From the NCBI GenBank assembly GCA_002733495.1, contig NVVV01000001.1, positions 24,158 to 88,157 on the forward strand: a DNA stretch of 64,000 bases, given 5' to 3'. The notes beneath the pieces were generated by a model that was not told the origin of the DNA, searched no databases, and worked only from the letters and a program-made list of their open reading frames with translations. The first letter of the stretch is position 1; every line of letters begins with the position of its first letter. The translations under genes and the position numbers were made by a program. Source of the DNA: Robiginitomaculum sp. (GTDB taxonomy: Bacteria > Pseudomonadota > Alphaproteobacteria > Caulobacterales > Maricaulaceae). Of the stretch, positions 6,708 through 58,971 are shown piece by piece.

Positions 6708-6908
6708 TCAGCCCCCGCCAATAAAGCGCACAATCTCAATCCGGTCGCCCTTTTGCAGAATCACCTGATCAAAGCTCGAACGCGAAACGATAGAGAGATT
6801 GCGCTCTACTGCGACTTTGACAAGAGGGATATTCAGCGCCTCTATAAGCGTGGCAATCGTGGTGCCTGCTTCGACCGCGTGGGCCTCGCCATTGAGTGTG
6901 ATATTCAT
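6708..6908 (-). CDS. thiS: Sulfur carrier protein ThiS
   Basis: A 66-residue ubiquitin-fold sulfur carrier ending in the required Gly-Gly (RFIGGG), the C-terminus that is adenylated and thiocarboxylated for thiazole formation. The frame is open up to 6944, but that extension encodes part of the 26-base repeat at 6932-6957, so the ATG at 6908 is chosen: it gives the normal family length and begins directly with the first beta strand (MNITLNGE). It sits immediately upstream of thiG. The repeat lies 24 bases before the start codon, inside the likely mRNA leader. Confidence 0.92.
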
Positions 6909-6931
6909 GTGCTGAGGCTTATCCTTTTCCC

Positions 6932-6957
6932 CATCCTTCGACAAGCTCAGGATGAGG
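6932..6957 (+). repeat. 26-base interspersed palindromic repeat, copy 1
   Basis: The core CCTTCGACAAGCTCAGGATG plus flanks is identical to copies at 7000-7025 (inverted), 7374-7399 and 7425-7450 (inverted). Each unit can itself fold, since CATCCT (6932-6937) pairs with AGGATG (6949-6954). Together with the inverted copy at 7000-7025 it could form a 26-base-pair stem with a 42-base loop upstream of thiS. Confidence 0.95.
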
Positions 6958-6975
6958 TCCAGATCAAACTCATAT

Positions 6976-6991
6976 CCTCATCTTGAGCCTT
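6976..6991 (-). repeat. Degenerate partial copy of the 26-base repeat
   Basis: CCTCATCTTGAGCCTT lies between the two full inverted copies and matches the start of the inverted unit with one substitution and one insertion. It looks like a decayed third half-copy, suggesting repeated insertion or duplication at this site. Confidence 0.6.
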
Positions 6992-6999
6992 CCTCCCAA

Positions 7000-7025
7000 C
7001 CTCATCCTGAGCTTGTCGAAGGATG
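7000..7025 (-). repeat. 26-base interspersed palindromic repeat, copy 2 (inverted)
   Basis: Exact reverse complement of 6932-6957. It ends 5 bases before the stop codon of the GIY-YIG gene, so the nuclease gene starts right at the edge of the repeat on its downstream side. Confidence 0.95.
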
Positions 7026-7030
7026 ACAAG

Positions 7031-7342
7031 TCAGGCTTCAGGTTTTCCATATTCGGTATAATTCTTTGAAAGGGCTTGCACCTGATCCCAATCTTTGGCG
7101 ATCAATGCTTCTTTTTTAGCTCGGCTCCAGCCCTTTAGTTGTCGCTCAACGGCAATGGCATCAGTGATATTGATAAATCGCTCTGACCAAACCAGATCAA
7201 CGGGTCTGCGTGAATATGTATATGCCTTTGGGTTCAGGCCCGCATTATGCTCATCAATACGGGTTTGCGGGCTGTGCCCCCTATGGGAGCCAATGTAATA
7301 ACGCCCGTCTGCACATCGCAGCATATAAACCCAAATATCCAT
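7031..7342 (-). CDS. GIY-YIG nuclease-domain protein inside a repeat cassette
   Basis: A small single-domain GIY-YIG protein of about 103 residues. The WVYMLRCADGRYYIGS stretch contains the two-part VYML...YYIG signature. A conserved arginine (R28 or so, in TRIDEH) and the late ERQLKGWSRAKKEALI helix with the catalytic-type Glu follow. It belongs to the YhbQ/UPF0213-like group of stand-alone GIY-YIG proteins, whose function is poorly known; DNA nicking is the family activity. In-frame starts at 7360 (ATG) and 7372 (GTG) are possible; 7342 places the domain at the N-terminus. The gene is bracketed on both sides by inverted pairs of the 26-base repeat and interrupts the thiS-aroQ interval, as expected of a small mobile cassette. 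Confidence 0.8.
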   Translation of the reverse strand: MDIWVYMLRCADGRYYIGSHRGHSPQTRIDEHNAGLNPKAYTYSRRPVDLVWSERFINITDAIAVERQLKGWSRAKKEALIAKDWDQVQALSKNYTEYGKPEA

Positions 7343-7373
7343 CAGTGGGCACGCCTTCATCCTTATGGTCACA

Positions 7374-7399
7374 CATCCTTCGACAAGCTCAGGATGAGG
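7374..7399 (+). repeat. 26-base interspersed palindromic repeat, copy 3
   Basis: Identical to 6932-6957. It begins 2 bases beyond the furthest possible start codon of the GIY-YIG gene (7372), thus at the upstream edge of that gene, and forms an inverted pair with 7425-7450. Confidence 0.95.
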
Positions 7400-7424
7400 T
7401 TGTGTGTTGGCTGACTACATTACT

Positions 7425-7450
7425 CCTCATCCTGAGCTTGTCGAAGGATG
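7425..7450 (-). repeat. 26-base interspersed palindromic repeat, copy 4 (inverted)
   Basis: Exact inverted copy. With 7374-7399 it could form a 26-base-pair stem with a 25-base loop. It ends 55 bases before the aroQ start codon and so may lie in the aroQ leader. Confidence 0.95.
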
Positions 7451-7505
7451 GAAGCAAAAAACACAGCGCTTGCCCCCTAGGCGCAATGCTCGTAAAAAGC
7501 GCGCC

Positions 7506-7946
7506 ATGAGCAAACCGCTATATATTCTGAACGGGCCGAACCTGAACCGGCTGGGCACACGCGAGCCAGAGGTTTATGGCCGCGCGACGCTGAGTGATAT
7601 AGAAGCGGCCTGCACAAAAATGACAGCAAGCAGAAATCGCACCCTTGTCTTTCGCCAGACCAACTCGGAAGGCACATTGGTGGATTATGTGCAAGAGGCC
7701 GCAGATGCCGCCTGTGCCCTGATTATCAATGCCGGGGCCTATACCCATACATCCATTGCCCTGCATGACGCCTTGCGTTTGCTGAACGTGCCAGTGATTG
7801 AGCTGCATTTATCCAATCCAGCCGCACGCGAGGACTTTCGCCGCACAAATTACGTTGCCCCGGCGGCGACTGCCAGCATTTGCGGCTTTGGTGCAATGGG
7901 CTATGAGATGGCCGTGACAGCGGCGCTACAGCTCGTTAAAATCTAA
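7506..7946 (+). CDS. aroQ: Type II 3-dehydroquinate dehydratase
   Basis: Converts 3-dehydroquinate to 3-dehydroshikimate in the shikimate pathway. It is 146 residues, the normal length for the dodecameric type II enzyme. NGPNLNRLGTREPEVYG holds the catalytic loop with the Arg and Tyr, INAGAYTHTS the substrate-binding Asn and catalytic His, and IELHLSNP the late His. The open frame runs back to 7404, but that part is translated repeat DNA; the ATG at 7506 begins directly with the first strand. It heads the plus-strand run aroQ-accB-accC-aat, an arrangement common in proteobacteria. Confidence 0.96.
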   Translation: MSKPLYILNGPNLNRLGTREPEVYGRATLSDIEAACTKMTASRNRTLVFRQTNSEGTLVDYVQEAADAACALIINAGAYTHTSIALHDALRLLNVPVIELHLSNPAAREDFRRTNYVAPAATASICGFGAMGYEMAVTAALQLVKI

Positions 7947-58945: not shown

Positions 58946-58971
58946 CATCCTTCGACAAGCTCAGAATGAGG
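58946..58971 (+). repeat. 26-base interspersed palindromic repeat, distal copy
   Basis: Same unit as at 6932-7450, with one base change (AGGATGAGG is AGAATGAGG here). It stands alone, without an inverted partner and without a GIY-YIG gene, 27 bases after the stop of the small membrane protein. Confidence 0.9.

Follow-up and report, generated by a model that had tools for sequence, protein, structure and literature searches.

A GIY-YIG nuclease gene between REP-type palindromes in Robiginitomaculum sp.: comparative evidence for a family of candidate minimal mobile elements

Introduction

REPs have been sorted into a GTAG superfamily, linked to RAYT transposases, and a CGTC superfamily, which is mostly alphaproteobacterial (Di Nocera et al. 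2013, PMC3733652). In the portions of that survey on which we draw, CGTC REPs are defined by a tag CGTC (variants TGTC and CCTC), a stem of 8–9 bp, a loop of 4–5 nt and, for most, a CCA tail; they are reported from five phyla and from every order of the Alphaproteobacteria, and the superfamily is said to include the dRS3 repeats of Neisseria and the RPE repeats of Rickettsia. The same portions state that CGTC REPs "apparently lack a dedicated transposase" and that transposase genes were found unassociated with CGTC repeats; they leave open how these repeats spread and suggest that the enzyme may have been lost or replaced. They also report that REPs lie mostly downstream of coding regions and that several REP families in one genome have repeat-specific enzymes in GTAG/RAYT systems (PMC3733652).

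Our literature search, judged by titles, beginnings of abstracts and term counts, with preprints and most subscription papers outside its scope, returned no paper linking GIY-YIG proteins to REPs. GIY-YIG enzymes are hydrolytic, and covalent DNA intermediates are not known for them. I-TevI, the phage Seg enzymes and the Penelope endonuclease are GIY-YIG nucleases that drive the mobility of their own gene, and Slx1 is part of a eukaryotic repair complex.

Here we analyze a block in a 64,000-nucleotide stretch of Robiginitomaculum sp. DNA (contig NVVV01000001.1), the whole of which we call the window and in which all coordinates are given. The genome assembly comprises 3.19 Mb in 82 contigs and is 87.9% complete and 5.2% contaminated. 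A preliminary description, made from the letters of the sequence, had proposed that a GIY-YIG gene and the repeats around it form a possible mobile cassette.

Results

Structure of the block

Four exact copies of a 26-nt unit are arranged in two inverted pairs, with full complementarity within each pair, and enclose a single gene with a GIY-YIG match (PF01541), exactly as had been described. The features of the region are as follows.

6932–7450, no strand: whole repeat–gene–repeat block between thiS and aroQ (exact repeats; comparison with congeners)
7000–7399, minus strand: probable core cassette (inner REP, GIY-YIG gene, inner REP, with CCTC tags outward)
6932–6957, plus strand: REP unit 1, outer (exact 26-mer)
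7000–7025, minus strand: REP unit 2, inner (exact 26-mer)
7031–7372, minus strand: GIY-YIG nuclease ORF, 113 aa, likely start ATG 7342 (PF01541; orthologues; AlphaFold2 model)
7374–7399, plus strand: REP unit 3, inner (exact 26-mer)
7425–7450, minus strand: REP unit 4, outer (exact 26-mer)
58946–58971, plus strand: solitary dispersed REP copy, 1 mismatch
6708–6908, minus strand: thiS, left neighbor of the insertion site, probable start ATG 6908 (PF02597)
7506–7946, plus strand: aroQ, right neighbor of the insertion site (PF01220; orthologues align from start 7506)

With up to three mismatches allowed, the 26-mer has five matches in the window versus none in 100 dinucleotide shuffles of the window. 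The Pfam matches of the neighbors bear out the earlier placement between thiS and aroQ: the left one is ThiS (PF02597, E 1e-11, tested on the longer ORF 6708–6944), and the right one is a type II dehydroquinase, AroQ (PF01220, E 6.7e-53, tested on the longer ORF 7404–7946).

The unit had been called palindromic. Taken alone, it forms a weak hairpin (6-bp stem, 11-nt loop, −3.5 kcal/mol as DNA, z −1.95), while each pair of units folds as a long hairpin of about −32 kcal/mol as DNA (z about −12). On the CCTC-first strand, an unpaired CCTC tag (CCTC-ATCC...) precedes the stem. Compared with the published definition of CGTC REPs, the 26-mer has the tag in its CCTC variant; the stem of 8–9 bp with a 4–5 nt loop is absent, and no conserved CCA was found at its untagged end. 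The CCTC tags of both inner units face outward from the gene and the outer units face the inner ones, and the segment 7000–7399 therefore has a REP–gene–REP layout with outward tags.

Enclosed protein

The GIY-YIG domain (E 7.8e-15, 55.4 bits against a cut-off of 22.6 bits) is the sole Pfam match of the enclosed ORF, and no HUH/tyrosine transposase gene lies between the REPs; the gene is a free-standing short ORF between two genes, with one Pfam domain. Both of its ends had been placed within a few bases of the inner repeats. This holds for the stop, which is 5 nt from one inner repeat, but probably not for the start, since the orthologues in two congeners (G023 and G035) align with MSDxWVYML at ATG 7342, 31 nt from the other inner repeat instead of 2.

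Residues Y16, Y26, R38, H42, and E76 of the window protein are invariant in alignment A1, and among the relatives the columns Y9, Y20, R30, H34, and E68 are kept in 75–76 of 76 sequences; we take this set of Tyr, Tyr, Arg, His, and Glu to be catalytic-type residues of GIY-YIG nucleases. The relatives share one more conserved residue, an Asn kept in 75 of 76, to which no residue of the window protein aligns. In the AlphaFold2 model (mean pLDDT 80.9, pTM 0.70, with residues 89–101 unreliable), the closest solved structures are the UPF0213 proteins 1zg2 and 1ywl, followed by Slx1 (6seh, Foldseek E 0.034). By eye, the signature GAKYTK and RSxASKRE, which we label YhbQ-like, is absent from the window protein. 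NCBIfam gave no family for three of the GIY-YIG proteins, and a search of PHROGs yielded a single weak match, of a paralogue to a homing endonuclease.

Comparison of 12 gene pairs supports purifying selection on related copies of the gene: dN/dS was 0.03–0.16 in the six resolvable pairs outside G036, a genome of the same family as the window. The three pairs within G036 gave 0.33–0.51, which counts against the explanation that we prefer below, and dS was saturated in the remaining three, among them both pairs with the window gene.

Repeat family in the genome of the window

The search for the repeat throughout the genome, which had been suggested earlier, found its 23-nt core at 74 places with up to three mismatches, compared with 0 for the same pattern read backwards; the four copies in the block thus belong to a dispersed family. 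Of these places, 42 sit in pairs less than 200 bp apart, and 18 of 21 neighboring pairs are oriented like those of the window. Conservation among the 27 exact copies drops sharply at the borders of the unit.

The genome contains seven small stand-alone GIY-YIG genes, in addition to a UvrC-like gene and one longer gene, as well as two Y1_Tnp (RAYT-type) genes. By eye, REP-like palindromes of several types adjoin each of the seven, and a strict CGTC REP, as defined below, lies within 300 bp of four of the six other than the window gene. The genome also holds a tandem array of six CGTC-type REPs in the same orientation, one per 45 nt (G000:C24:3035-3285).

Window clade

The window clade was scored at 18 loci, namely the window, 15 more loci, and two fetched separately, from 23 strong places (E < 1e-20). 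The half-site CTCAGGATGAGG, with two mismatches allowed, flanks the gene on both sides in all 18, against a background of 3 sites in 31.9 kb. The tags of the nearest repeat pair point outward in 11 of the 18 loci, and seven have no outward pair. This layout, together with the fact that the sequence shared among the G036 copies ends at the inner right-hand repeat, makes 7000–7399 the probable core cassette.

By eye, the inner loop of the window-clade repeats is highly variable between species, with the arms CCTTCGA...CTCAGGATGAGG kept. At two loci (L050 and L056), this loop carries varying inner hairpins, some of which resemble the canonical CGTC REP stem (CCCCGGATCAAGTCCGGGG). At a locus outside the 18 (L230, in G082), a GIY-YIG frame resembling the window clade extends into a TTCGACAAGCTCA repeat and thereby acquires a repeat-encoded tail; TTCGACAAGCTCA doublets are seen by eye on both sides, the GATGAGG half-site is absent, and the flank score, defined below, is 8.

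Gain and loss of the block

Among 18 genomes of the family, the thiS–aroQ site holds the full block in three congeners (the window's genome, G023 and G035) and three REP units with the gene absent in a fourth, G053. Two further congeners, G045 and G006, have an empty site, a state for which the earlier description had proposed to check close relatives, and no GIY-YIG match was found at this site in the remaining 12. The gene is thus missing from the site in 15 of 18 genomes, and the finding that had been named as evidence for a chance link, the gene in the same place in distant relatives lacking the repeats, did not arise.

In another genus, a second site lies between a DUF502 gene and a glmS-like gene with GATase and SIS domains; it was matched in 60 genomes, of which 30 species were examined. 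The full cassette is present in G113, G477, and G427, inverted in G449, and reduced to a 3' remnant with a REP in G468. A solitary CGTC-type hairpin occupies the site in G436, G229, and G470 (with a truncated left end in the last), an unrelated CGTC doublet does so in G448, and ten species have an empty site with a gap of 7–34 nt. The solitary hairpins would look like scars left after loss of the gene between two REPs. Eleven species were left unclassed; eight of them (within L253–L282) hold 471–745 nt of other sequence with no GIY-YIG match, and the glmS site may therefore be a general insertion spot.

Copies at unrelated loci were found in both groups. Four species of the glmS-site genus carry cassettes that share about 420–530 bp at 76–81% identity between unrelated flanks, with homology beginning 2–12 nt outside the CGTC tag. 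As for the suggested check whether whole blocks recur at several loci, G036 has near-identical window-clade cassettes at three places, 93–97% identical over 475–534 bp and with different flanks. A few tens of bases beyond the left repeat are also shared in G036, which leaves the exact ends of the cassette unsettled. A footprint scan among the glmS loci yielded one usable REP with no empty partner, the flanks being too diverged, and neither the precise footprint of an insertion nor a target-site duplication could be resolved, which counts against the preferred explanation.

Taken together, the comparison supports a REP–gene–REP block that is gained, lost, inverted, and copied to new loci. The notion of a mobile cassette is thus strengthened by full, REP-only, and empty states within one genus and by the three G036 copies.

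At another locus (L173, about 2150–2450, in G275), a stretch with inverted-repeat-like ends (CTAGTG... / ...CCCTAGTG region) interrupts a REP that neighbors a GIY-YIG gene, which looks as though another mobile element had used the REP as its target.

Association of the gene with REPs in the wider family

Species genomes were scanned with query A2, a set of 12 relatives headed by a paralogue from the window's genome rather than by the window protein itself. Of at least 558 loci matched, the best 80 were analyzed; they come from many phyla and, as the top matches to a single query, represent the near part of the family. The strict REP test followed the published definition, with the tag limited to CGTC or TGTC and one stem mismatch allowed.

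Around these 80 loci, 228 strict REPs were found in 1.27 Mb versus 1 in mononucleotide-shuffled DNA. Their density per kb falls with distance from the gene, from 5.22 (0–100 bp) through 2.35 (100–200 bp) and 1.02 (200–300 bp) to 0.19 (300–500 bp) and about 0.06 beyond 2 kb, which corresponds to a local enrichment of about 90-fold on both sides of the gene. A strict REP lies within 300 bp in 55 of the 80 loci, and on both sides in 39. The tags of the nearest REPs point outward rather than inward in ratios of 35:11 upstream and 31:17 downstream; the inward minority (11/46 and 17/48) counts against the preferred explanation.

A motif-free flank score, the similarity of the 250 bp upstream to the 250 bp downstream with a threshold of 16, gave a concordant picture. 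Similar flanks were found for 54 of 78 target genes (L074 and L076 had too little flank and were left out) versus 12 of 869 other ORFs of the same loci (Fisher p 6e-57), and of these 12, four are themselves GIY-YIG genes and one is a spurious ORF composed of repeat sequence. In matched controls the proportions were 6/234 for small genes and 5/189 for spaced genes. By either criterion, strict REP or similar flanks, 69 of the 80 loci are positive, among them all four candidate phyla radiation loci and single loci from Planctomycetes, Omnitrophota, Elusimicrobia, and others. Neither feature was found at the other 11, one of which is the sole Bacteroidota locus.

Protein identity correlates with REP stem-loop identity (Mantel r 0.42, p 2e-4), also for pairs below 50% identity (r 0.25, p 0.008). 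For 54 of 76 proteins, the nearest neighbor in protein sequence has a REP loop of the same length (permutation p 4e-4). This co-variation is partly confounded with taxonomy; the 76 loci include some added because a REP had already been seen, and 76 of 120 is therefore not a rate. Overall, the comparison supports the view that, across phyla, CGTC-type REPs go together with this branch of GIY-YIG genes.

Control genes and co-occurrence

A strict CGTC REP was found within 350 bp of 1 of 31 RAYT-type (PF01797) loci versus 18 of 30 GIY-YIG loci (A2 matches, phylum genomes). In the exceptional locus (L216, 695–781, in G298), two CGTC REPs forming a doublet lie at distances of 162 and 220 bp from the RAYT-type gene. 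On this count, a RAYT origin of the repeats was rejected.

The YhbQ-like control search passed 3 of 142 genomes, and the set was filled up from two other searches to 13 YhbQ-like or other small GIY-YIG loci, including L237, a small GIY-YIG gene that is not clearly YhbQ-like. A strict REP is nearby at one of the 13 (L235, 45 bp away). Twelve could be given a flank score, L234 being too short; their scores of 7–10 equal background, and none has similar flanks. The YhbQ-type label given to the window gene at the outset therefore calls for correction, as YhbQ-like genes mostly lack the repeats; a link of REPs to GIY-YIG genes in general was rejected on these YhbQ-like and small controls. The near-negative result of both the RAYT and the YhbQ-like controls indicates that a particular branch of small GIY-YIG proteins is tied to REPs. 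At three loci with YhbQ-like genes and no repeats (L062, L063, and L066), the coding sequence upstream is alike, which suggests a fixed chromosomal place.

Among 239 phylum genomes, 73 have the CGTC-1 pattern (up to two mismatches), and 77 have an A2 match at E ≤ 1e-10. At E ≤ 1e-18, the gene is present in 29 of the 73 REP-positive versus 24 of the 166 REP-negative genomes (p 4e-5). In the 129 genomes of stated 100% completeness, the corresponding numbers are 17/22 and 23/107 (odds ratio 12, p 1e-6). In G289, just two CGTC-1 sites were found, and they flank the GIY-YIG gene of this genome.

The other 44 of the 73 REP-positive genomes gave no GIY-YIG match at E ≤ 1e-18, which counts against the preferred explanation. 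When 15 REP-positive, gene-negative genomes were searched with PF01541, one had no match and most had only uvrC-like or YhbQ-like matches; G095, with 179 REPs and 99% completeness, had only a uvrC-like one. REPs can thus exist without a detected partner. Loss of the gene, missing contigs, or other mobilizers are possible explanations for such genomes.

Discussion

Comparison of genomes shows a mobile cassette whose gene accompanies the repeat around it; the gene as putative mobilizer of the cassette is the best explanation of the data. It is likely that the block between thiS and aroQ belongs to a large family of minimal bacterial mobile elements, each consisting of a single-domain GIY-YIG gene between its own REP-type palindromes and candidate for its own mobilization. 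The earlier interpretation is supported, and the link of repeat and gene is not due to chance: instead of repeats showing no preference for GIY-YIG genes, which had been named as a result that would speak for chance, every scored window-clade locus has them on both sides, and the wider family agrees. Counting against the preferred explanation are also the 11 loci of 80 with neither feature, the RAYT-type and YhbQ-like exceptions (L216 and L235), the seven window-clade loci with no outward pair, and the departure of the window's 26-mer from the CGTC definition.

We infer that the protein itself would perform the move. The tags of the bracketing REPs (CGTC or TGTC, here CCTC) most often point outward. 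In the proposed mechanism, the protein would recognize the folded REP as a hairpin or cruciform and nick at or beside the tag, and host replication or repair would then copy or move the cassette, or gene-less REP doublets, to new places. The 74 dispersed places of the 26-mer would be non-autonomous derivatives of the cassette. The role would be that thought for RAYT transposases on GTAG REPs, played by an unrelated hydrolytic enzyme, and since GIY-YIG enzymes are hydrolytic and covalent DNA intermediates are not known for them, the chemistry would differ from that of the HUH RAYTs.

Among the alternatives, a homing-type GIY-YIG parasite could insert in or next to abundant REPs that spread by other means. 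Gene-less REPs where relatives have the gene (G053 at thiS–aroQ; G436, G229, and G470 at glmS) and the many REP-rich genomes with no detected gene speak for such a parasite. We nevertheless regard this as improbable, because variation in the protein tracks that in the REP sequence, palindromes of differing types are seen by eye beside all seven small GIY-YIG genes in the genome of the window, the flanking tags are more often outward, and G289 has its only two sites found at its gene. Still less probable is that cassette and REPs owe their movement to another enzyme supplied in trans, such as a RAYT or IS transposase, or to recombination of the repeats by the host. The window's genome does have two Y1_Tnp genes, one RAYT-type locus is near CGTC REPs, and the inverted cassette of G449 is explicable by recombination between inverted REPs. 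However, the other 30 of the 31 RAYT-type loci have no strict CGTC REP within 350 bp, RAYT-type genes are present in 33 of 142 class genomes, the parts of the published survey used here likewise report transposase genes not associated with CGTC repeats (PMC3733652), and recombination alone does not put copies at unrelated loci.

The place of the gene inside the repeats and its movement with them at variable loci also bear on a protective function, in which the protein would trim or resolve cruciforms at REPs like Slx1 or SbcCD and make them tolerable rather than spread them. The very stable hairpins of the REP pairs and the rank of Slx1 as the nearest solved nuclease after the two UPF0213 proteins are in line with it, but a housekeeping role needs neither that place nor that movement, and we give it marginally less weight than transport in trans. 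As for REPs serving as transcription terminators or RNA stabilizers of a small gene, or lying there by coincidence, the reported position of REPs mostly downstream of coding regions (PMC3733652, in the parts used here) would fit; the enrichment on both sides of the gene, the 12 positives among 869 control ORFs and the empty sites at thiS–aroQ and glmS make this reading scarcely credible.

Returning to mobilization by the enclosed gene, we consider GIY-YIG proteins of this branch the best candidates for the missing enzyme that spreads CGTC REPs, with cutting of the REP by the protein as a putative step. We also lean, with more reserve, toward a wider proposal, according to which a GIY-YIG nuclease of roughly 100 aa would be the sole protein that the element has to encode for REP-bounded cassettes and gene-less doublets to be excised or copied, and would be a dedicated CGTC mobilizer in many phyla, perhaps for dRS3 and RPE too. 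If the enzyme is sufficient, these elements would form a new class of bacterial DNA transposon, and GIY-YIG would, if this is true, join the short list of folds driving DNA elements. With a candidate partner that is enclosed by the repeats, travels with them, and varies in step with them, the spread of CGTC REPs becomes a directly testable question, and a role is suggested for a common, little-explained class of genes.

With respect to known systems, Slx1 has the same GIY-YIG fold and acts on branched DNA but is not linked to repeats. The YhbQ/UPF0213 proteins are similar to the window protein in fold and size, yet YhbQ-like genes mostly have no flanking repeats. GIY-YIG homing endonucleases differ in another way: no intron, intein, reverse transcriptase, or separate DNA-binding domain is seen in the window element, and elements of its type are bounded by palindromes and occur at unrelated loci. 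Occurrence at unrelated loci is also what is expected of DNA transposons and MITEs. The REPs beside most GIY-YIG genes fit the definition of the CGTC superfamily (55 of 80 loci within 300 bp), whereas the 26-mer of the window has the CCTC variant of the tag but departs from the definition with its short stem and lack of a CCA tail. The closest resemblance in layout is to the REPtrons, that is, GTAG REPs or REPINs with a RAYT (TnpA-REP): both have one small enzyme gene flanked by inverted, tagged REPs, an unpaired four-base tag, and many gene-less single and paired REPs in the genome. They differ in that the RAYT is an HUH/tyrosine enzyme with the tag GTAG, and the enzyme here is a GIY-YIG protein with the tag CGTC, TGTC, or CCTC; the layout is that of a REPtron, with an enzyme of an unrelated class.
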